Source of the DNA: Marinobacter sp. JH2
Lineage (GTDB): Bacteria; Pseudomonadota; Gammaproteobacteria; Pseudomonadales; Oleiphilaceae
Length of the DNA stretch: 64,000 nucleotides
Assembly: GCF_004353225.1 (NCBI RefSeq)
Contig: NZ_CP037934.1
Coordinates: 620,001 to 684,000, forward strand
Direction: 5' to 3'
The translations under genes and the position numbers were made by a program. The notes below the pieces were generated by a model that was not told where the DNA came from, made no database searches, and saw only the letters and a program-made list of their open reading frames with translations. Below, piece after piece: positions 18,500-42,797 of the stretch. Numbering within the stretch: position 1 is the stretch's first letter; every line of letters starts with the position of its first letter.

Positions 18500-18532
18500 A
18501 TTCAAGTTCAATTCAGTGTCAAAGGATATAAT
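18500..18532 (+). promoter_or_regulatory. 11-bp direct-repeat box and promoter of the first porin
   Basis: ATTCAAGTTCA and ATTCAGTGTCA in direct tandem (18500-18521), followed by AAGG and a perfect -10 TATAAT (18527-18532), 16 bases from the start of the second repeat. There is no good -35, as expected for a promoter activated by an OmpR/PhoP-type regulator. Leader of about 138 bases to the porin. Confidence 0.65.
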
Positions 18533-18676
18533 AAAAGGTTTTGGTTTTAGGTTGTTGAAATACAAAGAAAAAATTTAAAAATGTAACAACTCTGCAATAA
18601 GTGCAAAGCGCCATCTACTCAGCATTTGAAAGACTTCAAGTGTCATTTTGAATCTATCTAATCTGAAGAGGTGTCC

Positions 18677-19666
18677 ATGAAAAAGTGTCTATCAATGTTG
18701 GTGTTTGGTGGGGTTGCAGTAACTTCAATGAATGCACTAGCGGGGGAAGGTCCTATCCTGTACGGCAAAGCCAATGTTTCGTATGAAAACCAGGACGACG
18801 GTAATAGCGATACCTGGAAGCTCCAGAGTAATGCGTCCCGTCTGGGGGTAAAAGGGGCGCTCAATACCGACCTCGAAGGCTTGGAGGCGATCTACAAGGC
18901 AGAATTTGAAATATCGATTGATGATGGAGATAAGGATGGCCAGACTTTCTCGCAGCGTAATATTTACGGTGGCTTCAAGCAGGCGAACCTCGGTGCACTG
19001 ATTGCGGGAAAATTTGACACACCTTTAAAGTCAGCGCAGGGCAAGGTTGACCAGTTCAACGACTTACAGGCGGATATAAAAAATATCATGGCTGGTGAAA
19101 ATCGGACCAGCAACATTGTTCAATACAGTTCTCCACGTCTGTTTGATGCTGTGGGCGTTAGTGTTGCCGTCATCCCGGGTGAAGAGCAGTCAGCTGGGGC
19201 AGAGAACGACGGACCTGCGGATGCAGTTTCCAGCTCTTTTACGTTTGAGAATGATCGTTTTTACGGAAGTATTGCCTACGATTCTGATATCGAAGATTCA
19301 CTGGAAGCCGATTCAAGTGGCGATAGTCGTCTTAATATCCTGCGAACCGTAGGGAAGGTCCGATTAAGCAACTTCGAGATCGGCGCAGTTTACCAGTTGG
19401 CAGAAGAAAGCGATGGCCCTGGAGAAGATACGTCTTATCTGGTTGGTGGTGCCGTTAATCTTGAGCGTTGGAAGATCAAGGCACAGTACGGACTGACCGA
19501 AGCCGAGACAACAAACGAGGAGCTAACCCTGCTGGCCTTGGGGCTCGATTATAAACTGGCGAGCAAGAGTAAGGTCTATGCGTATGTGTCTCAGGTGGAG
19601 GCGGACTTGGCCGACTCTGAGGACTCCACATTTGGTGTGGGCTTCGAGCATAAGTTTTCCATGTAG
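18677..19666 (+). CDS. Outer-membrane general porin
   Basis: Gram-negative porin of 329 residues. The signal peptide ends at about ...MNALA-GEG. The N terminus of the mature protein (ILYGKANVSYENQ, SNASRLGVKGALNTDLEGLEAIYKAEFEIS) is typical of trimeric 16-strand porins (Gram_neg porin). It ends in GFEHKFSM, with a penultimate Phe-Ser-Met rather than a terminal Phe. I chose the ATG at 18677 with GAAGAGG just upstream; a GTG two codons earlier is less likely. Transcribed from the direct-repeat box at 18500. Confidence 0.85.
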   Translation: MKKCLSMLVFGGVAVTSMNALAGEGPILYGKANVSYENQDDGNSDTWKLQSNASRLGVKGALNTDLEGLEAIYKAEFEISIDDGDKDGQTFSQRNIYGGFKQANLGALIAGKFDTPLKSAQGKVDQFNDLQADIKNIMAGENRTSNIVQYSSPRLFDAVGVSVAVIPGEEQSAGAENDGPADAVSSSFTFENDRFYGSIAYDSDIEDSLEADSSGDSRLNILRTVGKVRLSNFEIGAVYQLAEESDGPGEDTSYLVGGAVNLERWKIKAQYGLTEAETTNEELTLLALGLDYKLASKSKVYAYVSQVEADLADSEDSTFGVGFEHKFSM

Positions 19667-19722
19667 AGTCGAGCGTGATCGCTGAATACAGGGGGACCGA
19701 CGTATCTGAAATCTTTTCCGGA

Positions 19723-19758
19723 TTTCAAGCTCATTTAAGGTTCGTGTGAGAGTCTACT
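19723..19758 (+). promoter_or_regulatory. 11-bp direct-repeat box between two porin genes
   Basis: TTTCAAGCTCA and TTTAAGGTTCG in tandem (19723-19744), with a possible -10 TCTACT at 19753-19758, 19 bases from the start of the second repeat (16 at the other sites). A terminator lies 26 bases further on, before the next gene, so the product may be a short RNA or an attenuated leader. Confidence 0.5.
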
Positions 19759-19783
19759 TGTGAGTTAACTCAGGTTATTTAAT

Positions 19784-19814
19784 GGCGGGAATGCTTCATT
19801 CTCGCCTTTTTTTT
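19784..19814 (+). terminator. Rho-independent terminator
   Basis: GGCGGGAATG, three-base loop, CATTCTCGCC, then eight T residues. It lies 117 bases after the first porin stop and 100 bases before the next porin start. Confidence 0.8.
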
Positions 19815-19914
19815 GACCTTTAGTTCGTTGTTCTAGCTGGTTTTAAGATTTGCGCCACGATCCGTACGAATCGGATATCACAAACAATTAAGAAAGAAAC
19901 TGGAGGGGAATACG

Positions 19915-21321
19915 TTGAAGCGCAACATTCTGGCCACTGCGATTGCAGGGATGACAACACTGTCGGGAAGTTGGGCCGCGACGGCAGCGGAGGTTGAATT
20001 CCACGGTGATATGGATAACCGCTTTCAGGCCTACACCAATCAAAGAGACTGGTTTGCTGGTGGTAACTCAGGTGGCGGTACGCTGAAAGATGACGAGCCG
20101 ACCGAGAGCTTCGGCGAGGTCAAATATCGCTTCTGGGCGAAGGCAACTTCCGACGACAAGAAAGTTACCGGTGTATTCGCGACGGAGATTGGTGGCATCC
20201 GCTACGGTGAGGGGTCGGGTGGCGACTATTCCGGTGATGGTGTGAACATCGAAACACGGTGGGCTTATGTGGATTTCTTGGTGCCCAACACGCTAGACCA
20301 GCGCGTCTCGCTGGGCTTGCAGCCAGTGTCAGTGAACCGACATGTCTGGACTGAAACCGCCACAGCCGCTGTTTGGAAAGGCTCACTGGGCTCTGGATTT
20401 GACTATCAGTTGTTATGGGGGCGAGGTGACTCTTCCAATGAGAGCGGCGTCGACTCAGAACAGGACGAAGGCTGGGATGGCGCGGACAACTTCGCGATCA
20501 ACCTGAACAAGCGTTACTCACCGAACCTGAGCGCGGGCCTATTCTATCTCTATCAGATGAATGATCAAATTGCTGAGGGAGTAGGTACGGTAAATAGCAG
20601 GGAGTATGAACTGAAGAGTATCGCTGATAACTCCAAATATTCCGTTTCCAGCTTTGGGGTGGAGATGGATTATGGTCAAGAGACGTCGCTAGGCCGCATG
20701 TTCGTGAAGGGTACGGTGATTGGCCAAAGCGGAACAATAGAAGGTGTAAATTTCGTCCCATTGAATGGTGCTACGAATCCCAATACGAACTATGACCTTT
20801 CGACCGTTCTGGGACGCGGCGAGCTCGGGCTGCAATTTGGACCAAACCAACTGACGTACACCGTGCTCTACGCATCGGGCGATGGCAATGAGCAAGACGG
20901 GGACTTCGACGCCTTCATCGCCACGGATGTCGACTTCAGCGACAGTATGATTTTTCAGGAAAACATGACGAGCGATGACTACTTCGCCGAAACGCCCTAT
21001 ATCCTCGACAAAGGGTATTTCATGAACAAGCTACAGCTCGATCATAAAGTAGCGGCCAATATTACGGTCAGCGGAATGATTGTCTACAACCGCTTGGCTG
21101 AGGACATTGCACTTGCCGATGGATCGTCCTCAAAAGATCTCGGACTGGAATTTGGCTCCAAGGTCTCGTACTTCCCATACCCTTCGCTTGAGCTGTCGGC
21201 AGAAGCTGCATACCTGGCATCAGGCGATGCCATGGATGCGCTGGAGGAAACTGCCTTACAGGACGGCAAAAGCGATCAGGACATTGTTCATGTTGCCGGT
21301 CGGGTAAGGTACAAGTTCTAA
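19915..21321 (+). CDS. Outer-membrane porin-type beta-barrel protein
   Basis: Protein of 468 residues with a signal peptide (cleavage near ATAAEVEF). The rest is made of alternating hydrophobic strands, acidic turns and a C-terminal VHVAGRVRYKF with a terminal Phe, the marker for BAM-dependent barrels. It begins with TTG, supported by GGAGGGG 8 bases upstream. The substrate is unknown; the barrel is acidic in its loops. A strong hairpin terminator follows. It may be read from the box at 19723 if the intervening terminator is passed, or from an unseen promoter. Confidence 0.78.
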   Translation: MKRNILATAIAGMTTLSGSWAATAAEVEFHGDMDNRFQAYTNQRDWFAGGNSGGGTLKDDEPTESFGEVKYRFWAKATSDDKKVTGVFATEIGGIRYGEGSGGDYSGDGVNIETRWAYVDFLVPNTLDQRVSLGLQPVSVNRHVWTETATAAVWKGSLGSGFDYQLLWGRGDSSNESGVDSEQDEGWDGADNFAINLNKRYSPNLSAGLFYLYQMNDQIAEGVGTVNSREYELKSIADNSKYSVSSFGVEMDYGQETSLGRMFVKGTVIGQSGTIEGVNFVPLNGATNPNTNYDLSTVLGRGELGLQFGPNQLTYTVLYASGDGNEQDGDFDAFIATDVDFSDSMIFQENMTSDDYFAETPYILDKGYFMNKLQLDHKVAANITVSGMIVYNRLAEDIALADGSSSKDLGLEFGSKVSYFPYPSLELSAEAAYLASGDAMDALEETALQDGKSDQDIVHVAGRVRYKF

Positions 21322-22963: not shown

Positions 22964-24277
22964 TCAAATGCTTCTGGGAAGCTCGATTAGAACCCGAAGA
23001 CCACCTTTGGGTGATAAAGAAAAATGCATGGCACCACCGTAGTCATTGATGATTTCCTCAACGATTGATAGGCCAAGGCCATAGCCAGGGGTTTTTTCGT
23101 CCAGTCTTTTCTGGCGCTTGGTAAGATCGGCGAGTTGGTGTGACGCTACTCCGGGGCCGTCATCTTCAACAAGAATGGTCAAAGTGTCATCGTGAAGTTT
23201 CAAGTGTAGATGAACTTCCTGAGAGCACCATTTGCTTGCGTTATCAAGCACATTACCCAAGATCTCATTAAAATCACGCTCATCAATTGGCCAGACAAGC
23301 TCTCTGGGTAATGTTTCTTGAAGATGGATCTGTTTGTAAGGATAGATTCGACTGACTACGTCCACCAGTGCCAGAGTTCTCTCAATGATCGGTGTCGCCT
23401 TTCCAATGTACTGACCGGACATTTCGGTTTTTCTCATTTGAGTGTCGATCAGCTCGTGCATTTCAGACAGTTGAGACTTAATTTGACTCGCGATTGTGGT
23501 GGGAATGGCTTCGTCATTGATCATGGAGTTTATGACGGCAAGGGGGGTTTTTAAGCTATGAGAAATATCTGCGGCTAGGTGGCGTGAACGGGTAAGTTTT
23601 TTGTCGTACGACTCTAATAGACGATTAAGATGTTTGACAAGTTCATTGAATTCTTCAGGTACGTTCTCATCCAGTCTATTACGCTGACCCTTTTTAAGCG
23701 ACGTTAATTGGGCACTCATCATTTTTAAGGGTTTTAGTGCGATAGTTACCCCAATAAATATGATCAATGATATCGTAACGAGAATTGTAAAAGATATTAT
23801 CCATATAAGAACGTGGATTTTGTCAAGCGTGTTTGGTGAGTAGGAGCTTTTTTCAATTATAGTAACGCTTAGTTTATCTTGTCTGTTATTAAATATTCTG
23901 TAGTAGCCAAGGATTGAGCGATCATCATCCGATATGTGAAAAATTCCAGGCTTTCTGAACGATTCTACCACCTGTAATTTCGGTTTAATGTTCTCGCTTG
24001 TAAAACTCCGACCTTGACTGTCTTCGATGTGAACTGAATATTGAGACAATGAAAAATTTCTGAGAGAGGATTTTGTAATTTCTTCTTTATCATTTGTTAG
24101 CATCTTTGAGAGTCGGTTAGCTGCAGCCTCTAGCTGCTGCCTGTGAAGCTCGTCATGGATATAGTCGATTAAAAGGGTGTGTGAGAAGAATATCAGCCCG
24201 GTACACGCGAAACCCGTTAGCGTCAGGAAAGTAAGCAGTTTCCGTTTTATTGAAGGGCGTTGTTGTTTTCTGGGCAT
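22964..24277 (-). CDS. PhoQ-like sensor histidine kinase (orphan)
   Basis: Histidine kinase of 437 residues: TM1 (about 20-40), a periplasmic domain of about 120 residues, TM2 (about 150-175), HAMP, an H box ADISHSLKTPLAVI with the phospho-acceptor His, an N box GNVLDNASKW, then DDGPGV and GYGLGLSI ATP-lid motifs. The N box GNVLDNA-KWC closely resembles PhoQ. No response-regulator gene is adjacent; the only one in the window is the PhoP-like gene at 41980. I prefer the ATG at 24277 over a TTG four codons upstream. It faces the exported protein convergently with only 30 bases between. Confidence 0.83.
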   Translation of the reverse strand: MPRKQQRPSIKRKLLTFLTLTGFACTGLIFFSHTLLIDYIHDELHRQQLEAAANRLSKMLTNDKEEITKSSLRNFSLSQYSVHIEDSQGRSFTSENIKPKLQVVESFRKPGIFHISDDDRSILGYYRIFNNRQDKLSVTIIEKSSYSPNTLDKIHVLIWIISFTILVTISLIIFIGVTIALKPLKMMSAQLTSLKKGQRNRLDENVPEEFNELVKHLNRLLESYDKKLTRSRHLAADISHSLKTPLAVINSMINDEAIPTTIASQIKSQLSEMHELIDTQMRKTEMSGQYIGKATPIIERTLALVDVVSRIYPYKQIHLQETLPRELVWPIDERDFNEILGNVLDNASKWCSQEVHLHLKLHDDTLTILVEDDGPGVASHQLADLTKRQKRLDEKTPGYGLGLSIVEEIINDYGGAMHFSLSPKGGLRVLIELPRSI

Positions 24278-24327
24278 GTTGTCTGCCAAGCAGGTGGTTA
24301 GAATTTGTTATCGACTAAATCTAGGCC

Positions 24328-24463: not shown

Positions 24464-24760
24464 CTAATGAGTAAGCTGATCTTTTGAGAATTGGTCTGAT
24501 TTAGATAGATTAATATCGCCCGACTTCATCATCTCGTGATAAATGTCGTCTTTATTCGATTGCATCAATTTTCGGCGAGCTTCCATGCCTACTTCAGATA
24601 AGGCTGCCTGAGTCATTACCCTATGCTGTCTCTTCATGTCCTGAACGCTGCTTTCGGAGAGCATGTTTTGTGCCAGGCTGCCGTCATTGGCCTCAGAGGC
24701 ATGGAGACTTCCTGCCGCCAAGGTTAATGCTAGAGATGTGAGCAAGAGATGTTTTCTCAT
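24464..24760 (-). CDS. Small exported protein
   Basis: 98 residues. It starts at the ATG with AGGTGA upstream and has a clear signal peptide (RKHLLLTSLALTLAAGSLHA, cleaved before SEAND). The mature protein is about 77 residues, charged and mostly helical, without cysteines. Function unknown. Its promoter carries the same 11-bp repeat box as the porins and efflux operons, so it belongs to the same presumed regulon. Compare the 76-residue exported protein at 40368. Confidence 0.7.
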   Translation of the reverse strand: MRKHLLLTSLALTLAAGSLHASEANDGSLAQNMLSESSVQDMKRQHRVMTQAALSEVGMEARRKLMQSNKDDIYHEMMKSGDINLSKSDQFSKDQLTH

Positions 24761-24805
24761 AGAGTCACCTTTAAGTTGAATGGTCTGCATCCCGATGGAA
24801 ACAGA

Positions 24806-24827
24806 TGAACTTTAACTCAGCTTGAAA
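24806..24827 (-). promoter_or_regulatory. 11-bp direct-repeat box of the small exported protein
   Basis: On the minus strand TTTCAAGCTGA and GTTAAAGTTCA in tandem. A weak -10-like TTCCAT follows at the usual 16-base distance from the start of the second repeat. The gene starts 46 bases from the box. Confidence 0.6.
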
Positions 24828-24913: not shown

Positions 24914-24957
24914 TTTCAATTTCGTTTCAATTTCGTTTCAAGTTCATCTGCTATCAA
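24914..24957 (+). promoter_or_regulatory. Triple 11-bp direct-repeat box and promoter of the DcaP-type porin
   Basis: Three exact-register repeats: TTTCAATTTCG twice, then TTTCAAGTTCA. A -10 TATCAA follows at 24952-24957, 16 bases from the start of the last repeat. This is the strongest of the repeat boxes and leaves a leader of about 143 bases. Confidence 0.7.
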
Positions 24958-25106: not shown

Positions 25107-26360
25107 ATGCAAACTAATAAACTCAGGTTAGCGATTAGAGCAACACTAGCGCTTTCGGTTACGGGTCTGCTGGCCCCGTCTGTTCATGCGCAATCTGCAA
25201 CTGAACTTCAGACACAGATTAATGATTTGCAGCGCCAATTGGATGACATGGCGGAAAGTAAGGGGGCGGAAGGTTGGATGGTGCCTGGCACCAACACCAC
25301 TGTAACAATCGGTGGCTATGTCAAGCTGGACATGATCTATGATTTTGATCAGGACATGGGTGACAGCCTGTTCGTAGCAGGCCTTGATACTGCTAATAGC
25401 GATAGCGACCCTTCATTCCGAGCCCATGCTCGACAATCACGGGTTCGCATTAAGACAACCACGCCAACCGAAGTGGGTGATGTCAAAACGACCGTTGAAG
25501 GTGACTTCTACGGTGGTGGCGGTGATGAAGTTTTCTCCAACTCCAGAGGGCTGCGTCTTCGTCACGCCTATGGTGAGCTGAACGGCCTGCTCGCCGGTCA
25601 AACCTGGAGTAACTTCATGCAATTTACCGCCTATCCGTCCACGGTTGATTTCGACGGCCCAGTAGGTGTTTCTTTTATTCGTCAGGCACAGTTGCGCTAC
25701 ACCATGCCTCTTGGCGGCGGTGCTAATTTTTCCGTTTCTGCTGAGAATCCGGAAACAACGGGTTTTGACGGCTCCCGCGATAATGCGCCGGATCTGACTG
25801 CCAAGTACAAGTGGGCCGGCAGTGCTGGTGGCATTGAAGTTGCCGGTCTGGCACGTTCGCTTCAGACTGACTCTGCAGCTGCTACGGGCGACGATAACGC
25901 CTTTGGTTATGGCGTTTTGATTGCTGGTCGGCTAAGCCTGACCGACGCCACCACGGTCATGGCAGGGGCGATCTTTGGTGACGGCGTGGGTCGTTACATC
26001 TACAGTTCCTTCAGCAATAATGACAGCAGCGCTAGCCGCACTGGTATTGGTGAAGCATACATCGACGCCAACGGCGATCTTGAAACCATTGAGGCATACG
26101 GTGCCAACGTTGCTATCAGTCAGCAGTGGACGCCGAAGTTCTCCTCTGGTCTGTCCTATGGGCGCGTAGAGGGCGATCAGCCAGCAGATCTGTTCCCGAA
26201 CTCCTTTGAAACCCTGCAAAGCGTTCACTTCAGCAACTTCTACAAAGTTGCTGACCCGGTAACGCTGGGATTGGAGCTTTCCTTCGCAGACAAAGAGTTG
26301 GCCAATGGCGAATCTGCTGATAACACTCGCCTGCAACTGGCTGCGCAGTTCGATTTTTAA
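25107..26360 (+). CDS. DcaP-like trimeric outer-membrane porin
   Basis: Protein of 417 residues. The signal peptide ends at ...SVHA-QSAT. It is followed by a short coiled coil (TELQTQINDLQRQLDDMAES) that fits the N-terminal periplasmic coil of DcaP-type porins. Then comes the barrel start VTIGGYVKLDMIYDFDQDMGDS and SRVRIKTTTPTEVGDVKTTVEGDF. The C-terminal strand ends in LQLAAQFDF with terminal Phe. DcaP-like channels take up organic acids or dicarboxylates. It is read from the triple repeat box upstream and followed by a hairpin terminator. Confidence 0.8.
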   Translation: MQTNKLRLAIRATLALSVTGLLAPSVHAQSATELQTQINDLQRQLDDMAESKGAEGWMVPGTNTTVTIGGYVKLDMIYDFDQDMGDSLFVAGLDTANSDSDPSFRAHARQSRVRIKTTTPTEVGDVKTTVEGDFYGGGGDEVFSNSRGLRLRHAYGELNGLLAGQTWSNFMQFTAYPSTVDFDGPVGVSFIRQAQLRYTMPLGGGANFSVSAENPETTGFDGSRDNAPDLTAKYKWAGSAGGIEVAGLARSLQTDSAAATGDDNAFGYGVLIAGRLSLTDATTVMAGAIFGDGVGRYIYSSFSNNDSSASRTGIGEAYIDANGDLETIEAYGANVAISQQWTPKFSSGLSYGRVEGDQPADLFPNSFETLQSVHFSNFYKVADPVTLGLELSFADKELANGESADNTRLQLAAQFDF

Positions 26361-26551: not shown

Positions 26552-26584
26552 ATTCAGACTGATTTAAAGGTCTGTCTGTAGGGT
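26552..26584 (+). promoter_or_regulatory. 11-bp direct-repeat box of the first RND operon
   Basis: ATTCAGACTGA and TTTAAAGGTCT in tandem (26552-26573), with TAGGGT at the 16-base position as a weak -10. It lies 68 bases before the TolC-type gene. Confidence 0.55.
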
Positions 26585-26650: not shown

Positions 26651-27952
26651 ATGAACAAACGACTGTTGTTGTGGGTGCTGATAGTACCCGGAGTCTTGAA
26701 CGTCATGCCTTCGGCGGCGGCCACCGCCGGGGAGAGCGTTTCACTCAAGGAGTACCAGCAAGCCAAGGCCAGACAGGCTGTCTCTTTGAATGAGGCAATG
26801 GTAATGGCATTTGAGAATAGCCCGATATTGGCTTTAAGGCGGGCTGCGGTGTCCATGCAGGAAGCCGAGCTCGATCATGCCAGCCGCTGGGCGCCCAGCA
26901 ACCCGGAGCTTGAGCTGAGTGGCCGTGATAATCCAGATAAGGCAGATCAGTCACTGAATTACGAGGTTCGGGTTACTCAGGAAGTCTGGATGGGCAATCG
27001 GGGCGATCTCGGTCAGTCGCGTGCTCAGAGCACTCTCACTTCTCAACAGCAGGAACTTGAATACCTGAAGGTGGCGACCAAGGCCCGAGTGCGGTCAGCC
27101 TACTTCAAAATACTGCTTGCACAGAAAGAACTGGAAACGGCAAGCCGCACCGTTGAGCTGATGCAGCGAACCAAAGAGCTGGTCGAGGTGTCCGTTGAGC
27201 GGGGCAAACAGACCCGGATTGACCTCAATACCGCTGTCATTGGCTTGGCAAGAGCTAAGAGCCAGAAGGCCGAAGCGGAGCAAAAGCTTAGGCAATCAAA
27301 AATTGACCTGACGGAAGTTCTTGGGGTGTCCCCCTCCGATGCGGTAGGGGTCGTGGGAGAACTCAATGTAGCTCGTGCCAACTTGCCACCAACTAATCGC
27401 CTGGTCGCGCTGGCTCAGCGCCAGAGAGGGGATCTGAAGGCGGCAGCAGCCAGAATTGCTGCGAATGAGTCCGGCCTGGAACTGGCCAAGAGTCTAAGTA
27501 TTCCGAACCTGAAAGTGTTCGGGTTCTACGAGCGGGAGGAAAGATCCAACCTTTTTGGTGCGGGTGTGTCGATGCCTCTGACTGTGTTTCATGATTATTC
27601 CGGTGAAAAAAGGAAGGCCTCGGCTCAGTTGAAAATGTCCGAGCTTGAGGCCGAGGCACTGCGTTTGGCGACTGAACGCCAGGTCGTATCTGCTGTAGCT
27701 CAGTACGAATCCGCCGTACGCAGATTGCGCCAGATGAACGAGTCGATTCTCGAGCGTTCGGAGGAAACGCTGCAACTTATGCAGAAAGCTCTTCAAGCGG
27801 GAAAAGTCGATGCTTCCGATGTCCTGTCCGCTCAGGACAATCTTTTGTCGGTGAGGAAGGAATACGTCAAAGTGCAACACGACTATATCGACGCCGTCCG
27901 GGCGTTGGAAGTGAGCACCGGCGGTGCCCTTTCAATGTCATCCGGTTCCTGA
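26651..27952 (+). CDS. CzcC-like TolC-family outer-membrane efflux protein (RND operon 1)
   Basis: Outer-membrane channel of 433 residues with a signal peptide (ending near PSAAATA). It has the two long helical repeats of OEP proteins, visible as LNEAMVMAFENSPILALRRAAVSMQEAELDHASRW split by short turns, and NPELELSGRDN typical of CzcC/CusC homologs. It forms the exit duct with the adaptor and pump encoded next. AGGATG precedes the ATG. The adaptor gene follows 49 bases later. Metal specificity is not readable. Confidence 0.85.
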   Translation: MNKRLLLWVLIVPGVLNVMPSAAATAGESVSLKEYQQAKARQAVSLNEAMVMAFENSPILALRRAAVSMQEAELDHASRWAPSNPELELSGRDNPDKADQSLNYEVRVTQEVWMGNRGDLGQSRAQSTLTSQQQELEYLKVATKARVRSAYFKILLAQKELETASRTVELMQRTKELVEVSVERGKQTRIDLNTAVIGLARAKSQKAEAEQKLRQSKIDLTEVLGVSPSDAVGVVGELNVARANLPPTNRLVALAQRQRGDLKAAAARIAANESGLELAKSLSIPNLKVFGFYEREERSNLFGAGVSMPLTVFHDYSGEKRKASAQLKMSELEAEALRLATERQVVSAVAQYESAVRRLRQMNESILERSEETLQLMQKALQAGKVDASDVLSAQDNLLSVRKEYVKVQHDYIDAVRALEVSTGGALSMSSGS

Positions 27953-32308: not shown

Positions 32309-32325
32309 TAGTCAGGAGGCGGTTT

Positions 32326-34139: not shown

Positions 34140-35390
34140 ATGAAAAAAACTCTGATTTCAGTATTTGTATTGACGCTGTTTATAGCTCCCCCTTCATTGG
34201 TGCAGGCCGAGGAAGATGCGCATAACGAGGCGGGCCATGATCATGCCGCCGGTGGCGACGATCATCGAGAAGGTACCGGTGAAGAGGATGAGCATGAGGG
34301 CGGGCATGCTGAAGAACGTGAGCATGAAGAGGAACAAGGTCATGGCCACGAAGAGGAGAGCGATGGTGGTCATGAAGAATCAACTACCGCAAGCATCAAT
34401 GCCAAACAGAAAGAGCTCGCCGGCATTGAGGTAGCAACCCTCGAGAGCAAGCGCGTTGACTATGAAATCTACGCTCCCGGTGAGCTGCTGACCAACGGCT
34501 ATACCAGCTATCACGTGTCCCCCCGGGTTGCCTCGGTGGTGTTGAGACGTCACGTGGAATTGGGTGAGCACGTAACCAAAGGTCAGCAACTGGTAACCCT
34601 GTTCAGTGAGACGGTGGCACAGGCGCAGGCTGATTACAGGAAGGCTTTTCCTGAATGGGAGCGAATCAGCGGGCTGGGTCGTTCCGTGGTTGGTGATCAG
34701 CGGTTCAATACGGCGAAAGCGAATATTGAAGCGGCGAGGGCGACTCTGCTTGCTTATGGGCTAAACGATGATGACATTGGTGCGTTGAAGGCCAGCGGCG
34801 TAGGTAGTCTCGGTGAATACACGCTCAGAGCTCGCGTGGATGGCGCAGTGCTGACCGATGAGTTTGAGCAAGGACAAAGAGTTGAGGCAGGCCAACCGCT
34901 GGTGACTCTGGCTAATGAAAGCGAACTTTGGGTAGAGGCTCACCTGCCAGCAAACTCCGACATTGTCCTTAAGCAAGGGGCCGAAGCGGAAGTAAGAGTT
35001 GCAGGCCGAGTAGCTGTGGCAACGGTATCCCAGGAAGCTCATACCATTGACGCTGTGACCCGCACGCGAATTGTTCGGTTGGAGCTGGACAATCCGGAAG
35101 ATCGTTTTCATCCCGGAATGTTTGCAGATGTGTATTTCCTTTTTAAAACCACGGAGCCGGTGCTTGCGGTGCCGGAGAGTGCGTTGATGCGAGGCGCCGA
35201 TGGCGACTGGACGGTCTATGTGGAAGAGGCTGAAGGGGAGTACGAGCCTGTGGAAGTGGAACTGGGTCGCGCAATTGGCGGACTCCGTGAAATTTCGGGC
35301 CTGACTGCGGGCCAACGGATCGTTTCGCGGGGCGCATTTTTTGTGGCCTCTGAAATTGCCAAAGGCGGCTTTGACCCACACAACCACTGA
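34140..35390 (+). CDS. CzcB-like adaptor with His/Glu-rich N terminus (RND operon 2)
   Basis: Adaptor of 416 residues. After the signal peptide (cleaved near VQAEEDA), residues 24-80 are extremely rich in His, Glu, Asp and Gly (for example HNEAGHDHAAGGDDHREG), a likely periplasmic metal-collecting segment. Then follow the barrel-sandwich and hairpin domains (YHVSPRVASVVLRRHVELGEHVTKGQ, ARVDGAVLTDEFEQGQRVEAGQ). Such His-rich tails occur in CzcB-type adaptors and are likely to load metal into the pump. It is 14 bases before the pump gene. Confidence 0.86.
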   Translation: MKKTLISVFVLTLFIAPPSLVQAEEDAHNEAGHDHAAGGDDHREGTGEEDEHEGGHAEEREHEEEQGHGHEEESDGGHEESTTASINAKQKELAGIEVATLESKRVDYEIYAPGELLTNGYTSYHVSPRVASVVLRRHVELGEHVTKGQQLVTLFSETVAQAQADYRKAFPEWERISGLGRSVVGDQRFNTAKANIEAARATLLAYGLNDDDIGALKASGVGSLGEYTLRARVDGAVLTDEFEQGQRVEAGQPLVTLANESELWVEAHLPANSDIVLKQGAEAEVRVAGRVAVATVSQEAHTIDAVTRTRIVRLELDNPEDRFHPGMFADVYFLFKTTEPVLAVPESALMRGADGDWTVYVEEAEGEYEPVEVELGRAIGGLREISGLTAGQRIVSRGAFFVASEIAKGGFDPHNH

Positions 35391-35404
35391 TTCCGGGAGC
35401 CATT

Positions 35405-38400
35405 ATGTTCAACCGAGTTGTCGACTGGGCGGTTCAGAACCGCCTGTTGGTTCTTATTGCGCTTGCAGTGCTTATCGCCACGGCCGCGTTTCAGATCCCA
35501 AAACTGAATCTTGATGCTTTCCCTGACGTTACAAACGTCCAGGTCGCTGTTAATACAGAGGCGCCCGGACTTGCGGCCGAGGAAGTCGAGCAACTGATCA
35601 CCTATCCCATTGAAGCGGTGATGTATGCGTTGCCGGATGTTGAGGAGGTTCGGTCCATCTCCAAAACCGGGTTGTCTGGTGTCACCGTGGTCTTTAAAGA
35701 GGGCTCGGATATCTATTTCGCGCGCCAACTGGTGTTCGAGCGGTTGCAGGCCGCGCGGGAGCTGATTCCGGACGGGGTCGGGGTGCCTGAAATGGGCCCG
35801 AATACGTCCGGTCTCGGCCAGGTCTACCAGTACTTGCTGATAGCGGACCCGGATTCGGGGTACGACGCAATGGAATTACGCAGCTTGCACGACTGGCTGG
35901 TCAAGCTGTTGCTGATACCTGCTGAAGGGGTAACAGAGATTCTGTCGTTTGGCGGAGAGGTCCGCCAGTACCAGGTCAATCTGAACCCGGCGCGAATGCT
36001 GTCCTATGACTTATCACAGAACGACGTCATGGACGCCCTGGAGAACAACAACTCCAATGTTGGGGGCTGGTATATGGGCCGTGGACAGGAGCAGTTGGTT
36101 ATTCGCGGTATGGGCTGGCTGGGTAATGGCGAGCAGGGGCTGGAGCAGATCCGTCAAGTGCCCGTTAAAACCAGTGATGGCATTACAGTGACGGTGAGCG
36201 ATGTCGCCCAGGTAGCGCTGGGCACTGAAATTCGCCAGGGTGCGGTGACCATGACCCGGAAGGATGAAGACGGTCAGGTTGAACAACTGGGTGAAGTGGT
36301 TTCTGGCATTGTACTCAAACGAATGGGGGCCAATACAAAAGCCACCATCGACGGCATCGAGGCCCGCATTGATCGCATAAATCAGGCGCTTCCGAGTGGG
36401 GTTCGTTTTGAGCCCTATTACAACCAGGCGGATCTGGTGACCAAGGCCGTAGAGACGGTGACCAATGCACTTCTGTTGGCTTTTGTGTTTATTGCGATCG
36501 TGCTTGCCCTGTTTCTGATGAATCTTCGGGCAACAACGCTCGTGCTGCTTTCTATACCGATTTCTATCGGTATTGCGCTGATGATCATGGCCTGGTTCGG
36601 TCTCTCGGCCAACTTGATGTCTCTGGGCGGCATTGCTGTGGCAATTGGCATGCTGGTGGACGGCTCTGTTGTTATGGTCGAGAACATGTTCAAACATCTG
36701 ACGCATCCGGATGCTGAGCATGACGCCCGTCGGGATGAATTGGTGAAAAACGACCCTGACCCATTGGACGCGTCACACGATGACCATGGCATTGCGCTTC
36801 GACTGCAGGAGGCAGGCCGGGAAGTGGCGCGACCAATTTTTTTCGCGACGGCGATTATCCTGGTCGTTTTCATGCCTTTATTCAGCTTTGAAGGTGTGGA
36901 AGCCAAGCTTTTTCAGCCAATGGCGATCAGCATAATGTTGGCCATCGTGTCCGCTGTGATCGTTGCTCTGGTGGTTGTGCCGGCCTTGGCATCGTTTATG
37001 TTTCGCAAGGGTATTCGGGAGCGGGAAAGTTTCATTTTAAAGCCCCTCGAAAAGCTTTATCGCAAGGGCCTTGACTGGTCGTTGAAACACACCCGCTCTG
37101 TTGTCGGTGCAGCAGCTGTCCTTGTTGTGCTGGCGGCCTTGGTCGTGCCGCGACTCGGTACTGAGTTTGTCCCCGAATTGGAAGAGGGGACCATTAACCT
37201 CCGGGTAACGCTAGCCCCCTCATCAAGCCTTGATACCGCGCTTGAAGTGGCGCCGAAACTGGAGGCCATGCTGATGGAATTTCCAGAGGTGACCTACGCC
37301 CTGTCCCGGGCTGGCCGAGCGGAAATAGGCGGCGATCCGGAACCAGTCAATAACATCGAGATATATATTGGTCTCAAACCAACAGCCGAGTGGACCAGCG
37401 CCAGTAATCGCTATGAATTGCAGGCTTTGATTGAGGAGAAGCTCGAACAACACCCGGGGCTACTGTTTAACTTTTCTCAGCCTATCGCGACTCGGGTTGA
37501 TGAATTGCTGTCAGGTGTCCGCGCGCAACTGGCCATCAAACTCTTTGGCCCGGATCTCGACGTACTGGCGGAGAAAGGCCAGCAGATTGAAGCGGCGGTC
37601 CGAACAGTTCAGGGAACACGAGACGTGGCCATGGAGCAGATTGCTGGTGAAGCGCAGTTGGTGGTTCAGCCTGACCGTCAGGCACTATCCCGGTACGGAC
37701 TTGCCGTGTCTGATGTGATGAGTGTCGTCCGGGATGGACTGGGTGGTGCCGCCGCGGGCCAGATCATCAACGGAAATGAGCGGTACGATATCTATGTGCG
37801 TCTGGCCAAACGTTTCCGGGAAGACCGGGATGCCATTGCCGATTTCAGGTTACAGGCGCCGTCTGGAGCCTGGGTGAGACTCGGTGATGTGGCCGATGTG
37901 TCTATTGAGTCCGGCCCGCCTCAGGTGCGCCGCGATGACGTTCAGCGCCGTGTGGTCATTCAGTCTAATGTGCAGGGTCGTGACATGGGCAGTGTGGTTG
38001 CCGATATTCAGGATACCATCGCGACAGAAGTGAACCTTCCCCCCGGCTATTCGGTGGATATTGGTGGTCAGTTTGAAAACCAGCAACGAGCTCAGAAGCG
38101 ATTGACCATTGTGGTACCTGTATCTCTGGGCCTGATCGCGCTGTTGCTGTACTTTGCTTTCAGTTCGGTTGGTCAAGCGCTGTTGATTCTGGTCAACGTG
38201 CCGCTTGCCGTTATTGGTGGCGTCTTTTCACTCTGGATCTCCGGCCAGTATCTTTCGGTGCCCAGTTCCGTTGGATTTATCACACTGTTTGGTGTGGCGG
38301 TGCTTAACGGGGTCGTAATGGTCGAAAGCATCAATCAGCGAATACAGGATGGGTTGAACGTGGATACTGCGGTGTTTGAAGGTGCCGTCTCCCGTTTGCG

Positions 38401-38602
38401 TCCTGTCTTGATGACAGCAATAACCTCGGCACTCGGTTTGATACCGATGCTATTGTCGACGGGCGTGGGTGCGGAAATCCAGAAGCCATTGGCCAGCGTG
38501 ATTGTAGGTGGTCTCGTGACTGCGACTTTCCTAACGCTTTTTGTTTTGCCGGCTCTATTCACGCGCTTCTCAAGGGCTAAACTCGATGATATGCAACGGT
38601 AG
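35405..38602 (+). CDS. CzcA-like HME-RND metal efflux pump (RND operon 2)
   Basis: Pump of 1065 residues with the same layout as the first (twelve TM segments, two periplasmic loops). TM4 has AIGMLVDGSVVMVENMFKHL. An extra acidic/His insert (HPDAEHDARRDELVKNDPDP) lies between TM4 and TM5 around residues 435-460, absent from the other pump. The FGVAVLNGVVMVESINQRI motif is present in TM10. The downstream region has no PII-like gene. Paralog of the pump at 29201, with the same general role in metal export. Confidence 0.87.
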   Translation: MFNRVVDWAVQNRLLVLIALAVLIATAAFQIPKLNLDAFPDVTNVQVAVNTEAPGLAAEEVEQLITYPIEAVMYALPDVEEVRSISKTGLSGVTVVFKEGSDIYFARQLVFERLQAARELIPDGVGVPEMGPNTSGLGQVYQYLLIADPDSGYDAMELRSLHDWLVKLLLIPAEGVTEILSFGGEVRQYQVNLNPARMLSYDLSQNDVMDALENNNSNVGGWYMGRGQEQLVIRGMGWLGNGEQGLEQIRQVPVKTSDGITVTVSDVAQVALGTEIRQGAVTMTRKDEDGQVEQLGEVVSGIVLKRMGANTKATIDGIEARIDRINQALPSGVRFEPYYNQADLVTKAVETVTNALLLAFVFIAIVLALFLMNLRATTLVLLSIPISIGIALMIMAWFGLSANLMSLGGIAVAIGMLVDGSVVMVENMFKHLTHPDAEHDARRDELVKNDPDPLDASHDDHGIALRLQEAGREVARPIFFATAIILVVFMPLFSFEGVEAKLFQPMAISIMLAIVSAVIVALVVVPALASFMFRKGIRERESFILKPLEKLYRKGLDWSLKHTRSVVGAAAVLVVLAALVVPRLGTEFVPELEEGTINLRVTLAPSSSLDTALEVAPKLEAMLMEFPEVTYALSRAGRAEIGGDPEPVNNIEIYIGLKPTAEWTSASNRYELQALIEEKLEQHPGLLFNFSQPIATRVDELLSGVRAQLAIKLFGPDLDVLAEKGQQIEAAVRTVQGTRDVAMEQIAGEAQLVVQPDRQALSRYGLAVSDVMSVVRDGLGGAAAGQIINGNERYDIYVRLAKRFREDRDAIADFRLQAPSGAWVRLGDVADVSIESGPPQVRRDDVQRRVVIQSNVQGRDMGSVVADIQDTIATEVNLPPGYSVDIGGQFENQQRAQKRLTIVVPVSLGLIALLLYFAFSSVGQALLILVNVPLAVIGGVFSLWISGQYLSVPSSVGFITLFGVAVLNGVVMVESINQRIQDGLNVDTAVFEGAVSRLRPVLMTAITSALGLIPMLLSTGVGAEIQKPLASVIVGGLVTATFLTLFVLPALFTRFSRAKLDDMQR

Positions 38603-38689: not shown

Positions 38690-40012
38690 CTACTCTGGGA
38701 AAGGAAGCACAACTGTAATTCTGGCGCCCCCTGTTTCTGAGGGGCCAATGTTCATCCGTCCGAAATTGTCTTCTAGTATTTCGGACACGATGGACAGTCC
38801 CAATCCAAATCCAGAAACGGTTTCGTCAAGCCGGGAACCTCTATCCATCACTTTTGAGGCCGCTTCTGGAGTAATCCCAGGGCCGTCGTCTGCAACTTCT
38901 ATCGTTAGCCCGGAATCGGTCTGGCTTATTGAAACGTCAATCTCAGCCTGACTCCATTTCCCGCCGTTTTCGAGCAGGTTACCGAATAACTCTGATAGGT
39001 CCTGACGCTCCATGGGCCAACTGAAGTTATTCGGCAAGGATGTATTAATACGGAAACTCTTATCGGGAAAGATTTTTTCCATGACAGAAATGACGTTGTT
39101 CGCTATTTCAATCGGCAAACATGTTTGCCCCATCTGCCTGCCGGAGATATCTGCCTTGCTCATGCGGTAGTTCAAGGACCGGCTTAGATCCTTTAGGTTG
39201 GAGGCCATGAACTCTATGTCGTCGCGGGACGGAGGTAATGAACCAGTGTCTGACAAGATTGCGAGATTGGCAGAGATCGAGGTCTTGACCATGTGAGAAA
39301 GATCGGAATTGAGGCGGCGGTGGCGGTCAAGGCGACGACTTGCTAGTTCAAGTAGGTTATTGAACTGTTTGATCAGCGGACTGAACTCCTCTGGTGCGTC
39401 AGGATTCAAACGAGGTTGTTTGCCAGATTGCAGTCTCCTCATGTCTTCCTTGATGTGTTCGATCGGTTTCAAAGCGAGGTAAGTAGTGGTGCCTACCAGA
39501 GCCAAGAGAACAACAAGTAATAATGCGGAGGCAGCCAGCAAGGTCAGGTGAGCCCCACTGGATCGCTCGGCGAGTCCGCTTTCCATTTCCAGGATGGTGA
39601 CTGACGAAAGCGGACTATCAATTCCGCCACCTCGTTTCAATCCAAGAAGGCCATCTGCACCTTGGGATATTTCTACAAAGCCCGCCGGCTTTCTTGAAAC
39701 CATGCGCAACGTTGTTTGATCTATGTTGCTACTGGCAATGATGCTTCCGTCTTTCATTTCGACGACGAGCGCGTGCTCCAGTAGCAATTGGAATCGATCA
39801 ATCATGCTGCCAATCTCGTCGGGCGTCGGAACTTCGTTTTCAATGATGGTTTGAAAACTCTCCACCTCCTTGTCAAGGCGATGTTTTCTGGACTCGTTCG
39901 AAAGCTGCTCTATTACATAAGTGTGCGAGAAAAAAATTAGTAAAAAATACAAGAGGCTGAAAGCGATGCCATATTGGAGGACAGTTTTTCGGATGCTTTT
40001 CTGCGCTGTCAT
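38690..40012 (-). CDS. PhoQ-like sensor histidine kinase (second)
   Basis: Kinase of 440 residues from the ATG at 40012, close in length to the paralog at 22964. TM1 (about 12-35), a periplasmic domain (36-150), TM2, HAMP, an H box with SDLSHMVKTSISANLAIL, an N box LFGNLLENGGKWSQAEI, then DDGPGITPEAA and GFGLGLSI. The usual H-box Pro (HELRTPL) is replaced by HMVKTSISA. A GTG 15 codons upstream is an alternative start. Neither is adjacent to a regulator gene; the response regulator at 41980 is the likely partner. Confidence 0.82.
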   Translation of the reverse strand: MTAQKSIRKTVLQYGIAFSLLYFLLIFFSHTYVIEQLSNESRKHRLDKEVESFQTIIENEVPTPDEIGSMIDRFQLLLEHALVVEMKDGSIIASSNIDQTTLRMVSRKPAGFVEISQGADGLLGLKRGGGIDSPLSSVTILEMESGLAERSSGAHLTLLAASALLLVVLLALVGTTTYLALKPIEHIKEDMRRLQSGKQPRLNPDAPEEFSPLIKQFNNLLELASRRLDRHRRLNSDLSHMVKTSISANLAILSDTGSLPPSRDDIEFMASNLKDLSRSLNYRMSKADISGRQMGQTCLPIEIANNVISVMEKIFPDKSFRINTSLPNNFSWPMERQDLSELFGNLLENGGKWSQAEIDVSISQTDSGLTIEVADDGPGITPEAASKVMDRGSRLDETVSGFGLGLSIVSEILEDNFGRMNIGPSETGGARITVVLPFPE

Positions 40013-40201
40013 GAAGGTGCTTTTGTCGATTGAGCGGAAGGCTTCAGTTGAAGGCACATAGAGGTGCTCTGATTGGAAAGCATAGTTGGAATCGAAGCGT
40101 GCCGCAACGGGTGCGAGCCGGAGGGAGGGCCGCTCTGGGCTTCAGATCGGTCTGGCTTGGTCTTATCGTTCTTAGGCATTTGAATAACTTGATTTAGTGT
40201 C

Positions 40202-40275: not shown

Positions 40276-40308
40276 TTTCAAGTGTGTTTAAAGTTTCGAT
40301 GTTCTACT
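40276..40308 (+). promoter_or_regulatory. 11-bp direct-repeat box of the 76-residue exported protein
   Basis: TTTCAAGTGTG and TTTAAAGTTTC in tandem (40276-40297), with TCTACT at 40303-40308, 16 bases from the second repeat. Leader of about 53 bases. Confidence 0.62.
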
Positions 40309-40367: not shown

Positions 40368-40598
40368 ATGAAGAAAGTATCCATGATTATAGTAGCTTCT
40401 TTCGTGGCAAGTGGTGCTTCTATAGCCCACGCAGGAGGGCAAGCGGACAGATACAACGAGGCAAGAAGCTATCCTAATAAGAGCATAGATGAACGTTCCT
40501 CCCAGTATCGTGTGGAAGAGAGCGAGACCATCAAAAAACTGAAGGAAGAACATAGATTGATTAAAGAGTTGATTGGGGGTCTCTTGGAAAAGCAATAA
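40368..40598 (+). CDS. Small exported protein
   Basis: 76 residues with a signal peptide (MKKVSMIIVASFVASGASIAHA) and a mature part of about 54 residues. That part is a helical, charged segment (EESETIKKLKEEHRLIKELIGGLLEKQ) that could form a coiled coil. No cysteines. It lies between the second kinase gene and the TorF-type porin and has a repeat box upstream. Function unknown. Confidence 0.68.
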   Translation: MKKVSMIIVASFVASGASIAHAGGQADRYNEARSYPNKSIDERSSQYRVEESETIKKLKEEHRLIKELIGGLLEKQ

Positions 40599-41127
40599 CA
40601 TTTATCGTTGTTTACATGGAGCCAGACGGGCAATTACGTGGCTCCAAGATTAATTTAATGGTAGATTTTTGTTAATTTTCCCAAAATTGCGAAAGTCGCG
40701 CTTTAGTATTGATGAATCTCGTAAGGAAGACAGAGCGCAAAATGTTGGAAAGCTGCATTCTTAACTAAGATATTTTGCAGTATTCATGGCTAATTCAGAC
40801 CTCCCTCGATTTTTCATAAAACCATATCTAATCTAGAATTACCAAGTTAAAAATAGTTCTATTTTAGTCATCGTTTTTTCAATTCTTGTTCCTATTTGGT
40901 GCGCATTATTGATGAGCGCACTATCGACGAGCAATGCAACACTTGAAGCAGAGTGCTTATTGCATTGAATTGTTAAATATTTAATCATTTTTATGAACTG
41001 CGGCCCTGATTTGACAATAATTGCTCATAGAATAAGTTTTTTAAAAGGTGGCACAAAACGTGTATGCATTATAGGTGCGTTATTCAATGCGCAAATAACT
41101 AAGCTGCCCAAATAGAAGGTAAAAACG
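40599..41127. other. AT-rich intergenic region before the TorF-type gene
   Basis: About 530 bases with no gene. It contains a TGGAGCCA/TGGCTCCA stem at 40618-40647 shortly after the small gene, two further short inverted repeats around 40907-40975, and a sigma-70-type promoter at 41011-41038 (TTGACA, 16 bases, TAAGTT) placed for the TorF-type gene. No repeat box was found. Confidence 0.5.
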
Positions 41128-41856
41128 ATGAAAAGACGTATCTCGACTAAAGATTGTTTGCTAAGTGTTGGTTTGCTCGTAACTCTCCAAGCGGTCCCGT
41201 TAATTGCCAGCGCAGGTGTTAGTGCTAATTTGGGCATAACAAGCAACTACTTATTTCGCGGTGTGACACAAACAGATGGCTCAACGGCGACGCAAGGCGG
41301 GCTTGACTACGAACATGCGTCGGGGCTTTATGTTGGCGGCTGGGGCTCCAATGTGGATTTCGGCGATGGGACGAGCTACGAGCTTGATCTTTATGCTGGC
41401 TTCTCCGGTGTAATTGAGGATATCGGTTACGATGTTGGCTACATTTATTACTCTTACCCTGATGCTCCTGAATCTATTGATTTTGGCGAAATATACGGAG
41501 AGTTGAGTTACAGCATTGTATCTATAGGTGTTGCTTACACAGCAAACAGCGACGTAAGCGGCGAAGGGCTGTTCGTTCCAGGCGATATCTATTATTACGC
41601 ATCAGTTGATGTGCCACTGGAAGACGATTTCAGCACAGGTGTTTTGATTGGCTATTATGATTTCACTGATGATGGCAAGGCGTCTATTGGCGAGGCGAGC
41701 TACGGACATGCAGCTGTTAACGTCACCAAAGATGCGGGAAGCTTTGGAGCTTTTAGTGTTAATCTGGAGTACGCTGATATCGATTCAAGTAACGCACTTG
41801 GTTCGGTCAATTCGGACGACCCGAAGTTTTGGCTGGGCTGGACTAAGTCTTTTTAA
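41128..41856 (+). CDS. TorF-family putative porin
   Basis: Protein of 242 residues with a signal peptide (ending near LIASA-GVSA). The hallmark start is GVSANLGITSNYLFRGVTQT, followed by a regular series of acidic, Tyr-rich beta strands and WLGWTKSF with terminal Phe. This is the TIGR02001/TorF family of small barrels of uncertain substrate. AAGGTA lies before the ATG. A GC-rich hairpin (41899-41921) follows. Confidence 0.82.
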   Translation: MKRRISTKDCLLSVGLLVTLQAVPLIASAGVSANLGITSNYLFRGVTQTDGSTATQGGLDYEHASGLYVGGWGSNVDFGDGTSYELDLYAGFSGVIEDIGYDVGYIYYSYPDAPESIDFGEIYGELSYSIVSIGVAYTANSDVSGEGLFVPGDIYYYASVDVPLEDDFSTGVLIGYYDFTDDGKASIGEASYGHAAVNVTKDAGSFGAFSVNLEYADIDSSNALGSVNSDDPKFWLGWTKSF

Positions 41857-41898
41857 TCTATTTGGTATTTTTCACCGAAATGGTTAATCGTTGAGAAA

Positions 41899-41921
41899 GC
41901 TGGCCCGGTTTATGGGCCAGC
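41899..41921 (+). terminator. Hairpin after the TorF-type gene
   Basis: GCTGGCCC and GGGCCAGC with a 7-base loop, followed by a short T-rich stretch. Confidence 0.5.
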
Positions 41922-41979
41922 GCATTTATCTGGCGAGCCCTGGTTCTTGAGGAAAATGGTTAAATCACAGTAAAATCAT

Positions 41980-42666
41980 TTAAGCTTCAACCCTTTTTTG
42001 AAGAGAATCTCTTGCAAAGTAATATCCTTGTCCTCTCAATGTTTTTATTCGTTTTTTTCCGAGTATCTTTCTGAGCCTGGCTATGTAGACTTGAACGACA
42101 TTTCTGGTTGGGCACCTTTCGATATTATAGAGTGCTTCAACAAGTTCGTCCTGTGAGAAAACTCTGTCAGGAGAGCGAAGAAAGCATTGTAAAAGGCGGT
42201 ACTCCGTTGCGGTTAGTCTGAACTCTTTATGATCGGGAGTTGTTAGGGTTCTATAGGTTGCATTAAGTAGAAAACCATCCACGATGATCTTATCAGTTGC
42301 TCGCCCGTCTTTTCTTCGTATTATGGCGCTAAGTCGAGCTTTTAGTTCATCGAATTCGAAGGGTTTTGGAAGATAATCGTCTGCCCCGGCATTCAAGCCC
42401 TCAACTCTCTCTGTCCAGTTGGAGCGGGCAGTTAAAATAAGAATAGCTTCATCTCTGCCACTGCTTCTCCATTTTTGCATCAAAGAAAGCCCGTTCTCGT
42501 CGGGCAGTCCTATATCCAGAATGATCGCCTGATAACTGCTTGTCTCTACGAAGAAATTTGCCTCTTTTCCGTTTTGGGCAACATCTACAGTAAAGTTTTC
42601 CTTCGCAAGCCAAACGGAGATTTTTTCTGCGAGTACCGCGTTGTCTTCGACAATTAGAACCTTCAT
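41980..42666 (-). CDS. PhoP/OmpR-family response regulator
   Basis: Response regulator of 228 residues. The receiver domain has the acidic pocket VEDN, the phospho-acceptor Asp in IILDIGLPDENG (about residue 51), the Thr in ILTARS (about 79) and Lys in YLPKPFE (about 101). The C-terminal winged helix has FRLTATEYRLLQCFLRSPDRVFSQDELVEALY and RTLRGQGYYF-type recognition elements. It is the only response regulator in the window, and its own promoter has the repeat box. It is therefore the most likely DNA-binding protein for the boxes found upstream of porins and efflux operons. Confidence 0.88.
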   Translation of the reverse strand: MKVLIVEDNAVLAEKISVWLAKENFTVDVAQNGKEANFFVETSSYQAIILDIGLPDENGLSLMQKWRSSGRDEAILILTARSNWTERVEGLNAGADDYLPKPFEFDELKARLSAIIRRKDGRATDKIIVDGFLLNATYRTLTTPDHKEFRLTATEYRLLQCFLRSPDRVFSQDELVEALYNIERCPTRNVVQVYIARLRKILGKKRIKTLRGQGYYFARDSLQKRVEA

Positions 42667-42764
42667 CTATAAGCGCCGTCTCTGGATGTTGGAAAATTGT
42701 GGCTGTCGCCCTTCTCGAGAGCAAATCAAAATTAGCTAAGAGACCGGACTTCAAGCGACCCGCT

Positions 42765-42797
42765 ATAACAACAGACGAAGCTGAATCTAGCTTGAAA
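42765..42797 (-). promoter_or_regulatory. 11-bp direct-repeat box of the response regulator gene
   Basis: On the minus strand TTTCAAGCTAG and ATTCAGCTTCG (42776-42797), with -10 TGTTAT at 42765-42770, 16 bases from the second repeat. It suggests autoregulation of the response regulator. Confidence 0.6.

Follow-up and report, generated by a model that had tools for sequence, protein, structure and literature searches.

Eight promoters of a Marinobacter metal-efflux island share a tandem 11-bp box and probably form the regulon of a PmrA/PhoP-like regulator

Control of RND efflux and of a porin by a metal-responsive two-component system is already known from CzcRS (PMC3362554), and tandem boxes with an 11-bp period are already known for the response regulators PmrA (PMC10927774) and PhoP (PMC3156716). 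The Acinetobacter baumannii PmrA box reads TTTAAGNNNNNTTTAAG (PMC10927774), and the Pseudomonas aeruginosa PhoP consensus, GTTCAGNNNNNRTTCAG, consists of tandem half-sites with an 11-bp period (PMC3156716). The architecture I promoters of Salmonella PhoP carry the box over the −35 region, 11–12 nt upstream of the −10 element, and are predicted to be of class II (PMC3335776). Here, we describe an island of Marinobacter sp. JH2 that encodes 2 metal efflux systems, porins, 2 sensor kinases, and an OmpR-family response regulator, and that lies in a 64,000-nucleotide stretch of contig NZ_CP037934.1 (positions 620,001 to 684,000; hereafter, the window, to which all coordinates without a contig label refer). 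Eight promoters of this island share a tandem 11-bp box, which is concentrated in the island and kept at orthologous promoters of related loci. The probable island-borne PmrA/PhoP-like regulon, with its 8 promoters and its own box dialect, seems to be new; searches of open-licence PMC papers found no description of the box or the system, which is not proof of absence.

A tandem 11-bp box at eight promoters

The 8 boxes, denoted A to H, fall within positions 18500–42797 and consist of 2 direct 11-bp units each, with 3 units in the box at 24914. An earlier note on this DNA had proposed 8 promoters with 2 or 3 such units, and every one of them was recovered at the place and on the strand proposed. 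In a gapless alignment, TTCA occupies core positions 1–4 and TT[A/C]A positions 12–15 in all 8 boxes, at a period of 11, and the boxes agree mainly in their half-site positions and differ elsewhere. When each box was held out in turn and the matrix was rebuilt from the remaining 7, a scan of both window strands (127,958 positions) returned the held-out box at rank 9 (A), 3 (B), 8 (C), 7 (D), 9 (E), 9 (F), 11 (G), and 9 (H), with scores of 17.5, 26.1, 23.4, 22.9, 19.1, 19.1, 14.9, and 17.6, respectively. With the matrix built from all 8, the top 9 positions (21.9–28.9) were the boxes plus the triple repeat read in its second register (24915), the next position in the window scoring 16.5.

The sites had originally been chosen by eye, and the whole genome was therefore queried too. 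The pattern TTCARDYKNRDTTMARNKTY, composed post hoc to fit all 8 boxes and controlled by its reversed form, has 9 exact matches across the 3.72 Mb of the genome, every one in the island, compared with none for the control. Two models, R1 (33 columns) and R2 (24 columns), gave 8 matches each at E ≤ 10, likewise all in the island among the candidates scored (150 of 335 first-look candidates for R1 and 150 of 375 for R2). Reduced patterns proved too loose, TTNANNNTNNNTTNANNTTC yielding 15 matches (5 in the island; control, 6) and TTYARN6TTYAR 151 (control, 105), which is why the pattern fitted to all 8 sites was used.

The boxes also have a common promoter geometry. Matches to TATAAT, summed over the 8 boxes, reach 31 of 48 at an offset of 16 from the start of the last unit, whereas the maximum among 21 other offsets was 23 of 48, at offset 19; the 6 −10-like hexamers that had been placed 16 bases from the last unit all lie exactly there. 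A PhoP/PmrA-type box is a direct repeat of 11-bp period over the −35 region, and this is what was found: the period is 11 in all 8 cases and the −10 signal peaks at 16, boxes B and C fitting poorly.

On the plus strand, box A (18500–18532; units 18500–18521, −10 TATAAT at 18527–18532) stands upstream of a Gram-negative porin gene (Porin_4 by family match; 18671–19666, plus strand), and box B (19723–19744, plus strand, 2 units, with TCTACT at 19753–19758) upstream of a gene with a TTG start for a 468-aa protein (19915–21321, plus strand) that has no Pfam match and looks outer-membrane-like by inspection only. Box C, on the minus strand (24795–24827; units 24827–24806, weak −10 TTCCAT), precedes the gene for small protein 1 (24464–24790, minus strand) and, downstream of it, that for the PhoQ-like sensor kinase HK1 (22964–24289, minus strand). 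The triple box D (24914–24957, plus strand; units at 24914, 24925, and 24936, −10 TATCAA at 24952–24957) precedes a DcaP-family outer-membrane porin gene assigned by family match (25107–26360, plus strand). The 2 efflux operons, both of the CusA/CzcA family by family matches and both on the plus strand, have 1 box each, with 2 units: box E (26552–26584, plus strand), with a −10-like TAGGGT that matches at 3 of 6 positions and had already been called weak, lies upstream of the TolC1-MFP1-RND1-P-II-like operon (26651–32670), and box F (32789–32821, plus strand, −10 TATTAT) upstream of the TolC2-MFP2-RND2 operon (32868–38602). Box G (40276–40308, plus strand, 2 units, −10 TCTACT) precedes the gene for small protein 2 (40368–40598, plus strand), and box H (42765–42797, minus strand; units 42797–42776, −10 TGTTAT) that for the response regulator (41980–42666, minus strand). 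Both small proteins have signal-peptide-like starts, their export being judged by eye from the N-termini.

Between box B and the 468-aa gene lies a terminator-like hairpin (19784–19806, plus strand) with a 10-bp stem followed by T8 and a fold z-score of −4.3, about 20 nt past the predicted box-B transcript start. It is kept in the window and in loci L020, L022, L023, and L025 and is not found in L028, and the product of box B may be a short RNA or an attenuated leader. An Rfam scan of positions 17000–44000 returned no family at gathering score. A weaker box-like match is present past the hairpin, at 19831, and also in L023.

The regulator at 41980 and the box among relatives

The presumed regulator of the boxes belongs to the OmpR/PhoB family, with a receiver domain (PF00072) and a winged-helix Trans_reg_C domain (PF00486) above cut-off, and has the receiver residues E7, D8, D51, T79, and K101, which are invariant across 12 aligned relatives. 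Among the 41 places in the genome that matched it, its own gene is the sole one inside the window; together with box H, this bears out the earlier claim that it is the only such regulator there and has its own box. Its best NCBIfam and PDB relatives are PmrA and PhoP, yet it stays below the equivalog cut-offs of both (PmrA, NF007928, 195.5 bits against 330; PhoP, NF008078, 180.3 against 336). Membership in the CzcR/SilR/CopR family (cztR_silR_copR, TIGR01387) was rejected, at 143.4 against a cut-off of 279.2. Both kinases, HK1 and HK2 (the latter PhoQ-like by family match; 38690–40057, minus strand), are closest to PhoQ in their catalytic halves and score 173.5 and 150 against the NF008077 cut-off of 497. 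In the loci of a clade with an 84% identical regulator, the HK2 homologue follows directly after the regulator gene on the same strand. The H-box of HK2 reads SHMVKTS (SHLVKTS in the 84% clade), with Ser for the usual Pro in all 14 HK2 copies caught by the pattern used, which did not catch more distant homologues; that of HK1 is SHSLKTP.

The box travels with the regulator gene at 41980. At a threshold of E ≤ 1e-75, the regulator has a match in 32 of 124 genomes of the genus. The 18 genomes with a regulator at least 92% identical contain 3–14 pattern matches (median 8; at least 3 in 18 of 18), the 8 genomes in the 83–85% range have a median of 1 and a maximum of 4 (at least 3 in 2), the 6 in the 53–71% range a median of 1 and a maximum of 3 (at least 3 in 1), and the 92 without a regulator match a median of 1 and a maximum of 4 (at least 3 in 2). 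A rank test between the first and the last group gave p ~1e-12, not corrected for relatedness. R1 at E ≤ 0.05 found 30 of the 124 genomes, namely 18/18, 3/8, 2/6, and 7/92 in the same order of groups; the 7 compare with about 4.6 expected if the E-values hold, and, of 2 among them that were inspected, G050 has a copy resembling box H beside a 47% regulator and G076 another such copy upstream of a regulator piece aligned over residues 1–61 only. The assignment of the boxes to this regulator, as the earlier note had it, is thus supported at the sequence level by the confinement of exact matches to the island, the regulator's own box, its PmrA/PhoP-like character, and the co-occurrence across the 124 genomes. 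The earlier note had named equal frequency of matching repeats elsewhere as an outcome that would refute it, and the counts went in its favour: exact matches are confined to the island, and places with one mismatch number 15 in the other 3.7 Mb (control, 5).

Copies of the region occur on plasmids. A conjugative Marinobacter salarius plasmid has it in 3 pieces that cover 98% of 24.5 kb at 92.7% identity, and a Halomonas KO116 plasmid carries a part of it, with an 84% regulator. In loci with regulators of 92–96% identity (L017, L019/L020, L021/L022, L023/L024, and L025), boxes stand at equal distances from the same genes: −128 to −130 for the regulator (L017, L019, L021, L024, and L025), −98 for TolC1 (L017, L019, L021, and L023), −191 for the 468-aa gene (L020, L022, L023, and L025), −169 to −171 for Porin_4 (L020, L022, and L023), −181 for DcaP (L017, L021, and L023), 90–91 bp for small protein 2 in 4 loci, and 78–79 for TolC2 in 3. 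The deviating distances (19 in L019 and 109 in L025 for TolC2, 36 in L025 for small protein 2) fit differing gene starts in crude gene calls, and the gene called DcaP in L025, with a box at 243, is only 31% identical.

Boxes persist at some orthologous promoters despite strong divergence of the regulator (84% and 53–58%). The 84% clade comprises 7 loci (L018, L026–L029, L037, and L038), of which 5 (L018, L026, L028, L029, and L038) have a box 72–78 bp upstream of TolC2, the fetched stretches of L027 and L037 ending short of that promoter; in L028, the 76% counterpart of the 468-aa gene also has a box, 213 bp upstream. Among loci with regulators of 53–58% identity, boxes lie 90 bp upstream of the small protein 2 homologues in L033 and L034 (51% identical homologue) and 60–90 bp upstream of TolC1-type genes in L032, L035, and L036. 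In L030 and L031, both of the 70% clade, there is an intragenic match, which in L031 stands alone and in L030 is joined by a weak one (14.6) 76 bp upstream of TolC1. The 14 diverged loci (257,232 bases) contain 11 matches scoring at least 20, which are not independent because several of the loci have closely similar DNA, and 33 scoring at least 14, compared with means of 0.02 and 2.2 and maxima of 1 and 15 for 200 column-permuted matrices.

Two further observations concern the plasmid copies. On the M. salarius plasmid, a TonB-dependent receptor gene (L017, 30270–32324) lies between the 2 RND operons, and the window is without it. The Halomonas KO116 plasmid has box-like sites upstream of an azurin-like gene (L018 15223; score 19.3; distance, 66 bp) and of a multicopper oxidase gene (L018 31356; score 20.3; distance, 62 bp), which hint at a copper link; this plasmid also has a second regulator, and either of the two may bind there.

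A probable, largely self-contained metal-stress regulon and its alternatives

The best explanation, which we hold to be probable, is a compact, mobile, and largely self-contained metal-stress regulon on the island, probably under activation. Metal stress would activate one or both PhoQ-like kinases, which would phosphorylate the PmrA/PhoP-like regulator. Two of its DNA-binding domains (3 at 24914) would then occupy TTYAAG-like half-sites in head-to-tail orientation, spaced by one helical turn. Because the last unit lies over the −35 region, its start 16 bp from the −10 element, the bound regulator would recruit RNA polymerase directly, as in class II activation. Expression of both RND operons, the 3 outer-membrane proteins, the 2 small proteins, HK1, and the regulator itself would rise as a result, the regulator's action on its own promoter constituting positive feedback. 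If this is correct, a 24-kb mobile unit with its own regulator and 8 matching promoters would amount to a portable metal-response circuit, in which porins are predicted to be induced, not shut, together with metal efflux.

Several observations weigh against this explanation. With one mismatch allowed, the genome has 24 matches, 15 of them beyond the island (control, 5), including 3 in a core copper cluster to which we return below. Pattern matches also number 67 in the 92 genomes that lack the regulator, compared with 3 reversed-control matches in all 124, and there is therefore a background of similar boxes beyond the island, those listed being often of the TTCAG kind. Island DNA is near-identical in many of the relatives with a regulator at least 92% identical, so that the genome counts in this group are not independent. 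None of the 7 loci of the 84% clade has an own-strand box above 14 just upstream of the regulator; in 5 of them, the sole match there scores 14.6 and is on the opposite strand. At the promoters themselves, the hexamer at offset 16 is GAGTCT for box B, agreeing at 2 of 6 positions, with a better one, TCTACT, at offset 19; box C agrees at 3 of 6 positions at offset 16; and the hairpin intervenes between box B and the 468-aa gene.

The core copper cluster provides the second regulator to be considered. The second-best match to the island regulator in the genome (46% identity; C1:1490218–1490871) has CopA, CopB, a CopI-like protein, a copper ATPase, and CusB-like parts as neighbours, and it is a core gene, matched at E ≤ 1e-70 in 111 of 124 genomes. 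The genome has 27 copies of TTCAGN6TTCAG (control, 3), of which 7 lie within C1:1470918–1490167 (L045/L043), a second set of 11-bp-period boxes around the core copper region. The recognition helix reads NVVQVYIARLR in the island regulator, with NV[V/I]QVY[I/V] in its 53–84% kin, versus NVIEAYIRRLR in the paralogue. The 30 paralogue loci fetched are those with the best scores and in many cases nearly the same in sequence; all of them have NVIEAYIRRLR or NIIEAYIRRLR, and TTCAGN6TTCAG was found within 140 bases of the assigned start on the gene strand in 20 of them, on the other strand in 24, and on neither in 6. Here, the Q/E difference fits the TTYAA and TTCAG dialects, with few independent events behind it. 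The residue at this position is E in the PmrA/BasR of the structure library, yet published PmrA boxes are of the TTAA kind (PMC10927774), so Q/E is no simple code.

Binding of the boxes, wholly or in part, by this paralogue, which would make the island an extension of the core copper regulon, is in our judgement unlikely. Crosstalk is nonetheless a real rival, because the paralogue's promoter box, TTCAGGCTGAATTCAGGTTAAT, deviates from TTCARDYKNRDTTMARNKTY at one base and scores 21.3 with the island matrix, below the weakest in-sample island site (21.9) and above 5 of the 8 held-out sites. This also counts against the self-contained regulon, and to claim exclusive control for the island regulator would go too far. 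Both regulators are PmrA/PhoP-like, the paralogue is core in the genus, and the Halomonas KO116 sites upstream of the multicopper oxidase and azurin-like genes would be in keeping with a copper regulon. Yet box clusters go with the island regulator and not with the paralogue, since among the 92 genomes that lack the former, 79 contain the latter and the median in those 92 is a single pattern match; the 6 other cluster sites score low with the island matrix (5 at 11.2–15.5, 1 below 11), and the 2 recognition helices differ.

About as improbable, in our view, is that the island regulator binds and represses some of the promoters, for example those of the porins. In P. aeruginosa, CzcR represses the OprD porin while inducing czcCBA (PMC3362554), and the off spacing of the −10 element and the terminator after it at box B would suit such a role. 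The porin boxes A and D, by contrast, have −10 elements (6/6 and 4/6) at the same offset as the efflux promoters, which makes one geometry with one sign of control the simpler reading. That the boxes are shared through duplication or chance and have no regulatory role is very improbable. They were first chosen by eye, and the conservation counts are inflated by near-identical island copies, but the boxes are alike mainly at the half-sites and differ elsewhere, they persist at orthologous promoters across strong divergence, and a chance origin is unlikely given the leave-one-out ranks, the permuted matrices, and the genome counts of the fitted pattern.

The self-contained regulon invites a broader proposal, which is tentative and, taken as a whole, rather doubtful: a single cell may contain 2 paralogous PmrA/PhoP-like metal systems with separate dialects, TTCAG in the core and TTYAA on the island, set in part by the E/Q helix residue, and mobile islands may in this way bring along an insulated regulon of their own, comprising pumps and co-induced porins, that functions as soon as it reaches a new host and leaves the core copper response undisturbed. 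Because the cell also has the paralogous system for copper in its core genome, the separation of sites by duplicated regulators is directly testable.

Flanking genes and comparison with known systems

Both pumps of the island exceed the cut-off of 701 for CusA/CzcA heavy-metal RND proteins (TIGR00914), at 1132 and 1065. Their transmembrane motifs, AIGIGMMVDGAVVMIEN and AVAIGMLVDGSVVMVEN, resemble those of what we take to be the HME3 class, from which no firm metal follows. To the left of the island boxes lie 2 genes of the cation-diffusion-facilitator type (15579–18022, minus strand), one with a weak HMA match; the matrix scan of the window found no box of island strength upstream of them. To the right of the metal genes, positions 44475–61425 contain DUF932, YqaJ-recombinase, and Gp3-like genes, followed by SIR2-like, type I restriction-modification, and GmrSD-like genes, by which content the stretch is apparently one of mobile-element and defence functions. 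ARAGORN found no tRNA in the window.

Among the systems compared, the core copper cluster (C1:1470–1492 kb) resembles the island in its PmrA/PhoP-like regulator, PhoQ-like kinase, and 11-bp-period boxes and differs in the TTCAG-N6-TTCAG dialect, in its copper genes (CopA, CopB, CopI-like, and copper ATPase), and in being core in the genus. CzcRS, CopRS, and CusRS likewise consist of a two-component system beside RND metal efflux, and CzcR also controls a porin (PMC3362554), whereas the island regulator falls short of their family, cztR_silR_copR (143.4 against 279.2). The A. baumannii PmrA box, TTTAAGNNNNNTTTAAG, is very close to the island's TTYAAG-N5-TTYAAG (PMC10927774), and PmrA/BasR is the best NCBIfam and PDB relative of the island regulator; unlike in that system, family matches identified no lipid A genes behind the 8 boxes, and the score of 195.5 is below the PmrA equivalog cut-off of 330. 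With PhoP/PhoQ, the island shares the PhoQ-like catalytic halves of its kinases, tandem half-sites of 11-bp period as in the P. aeruginosa consensus GTTCAGNNNNNRTTCAG (PMC3156716), and a box over the −35 region with, when TTYA is aligned with the TTTA of PhoP as we did here, a gap to the −10 element of about 11 nt, a geometry that agrees with the class II activation described for Salmonella architecture I (PMC3335776). It differs from PhoP/PhoQ in that its regulator and kinases are far below the equivalog cut-offs, its presumed targets, metal efflux and porin genes, belong to an accessory island, and its half-site favours TTYAA.

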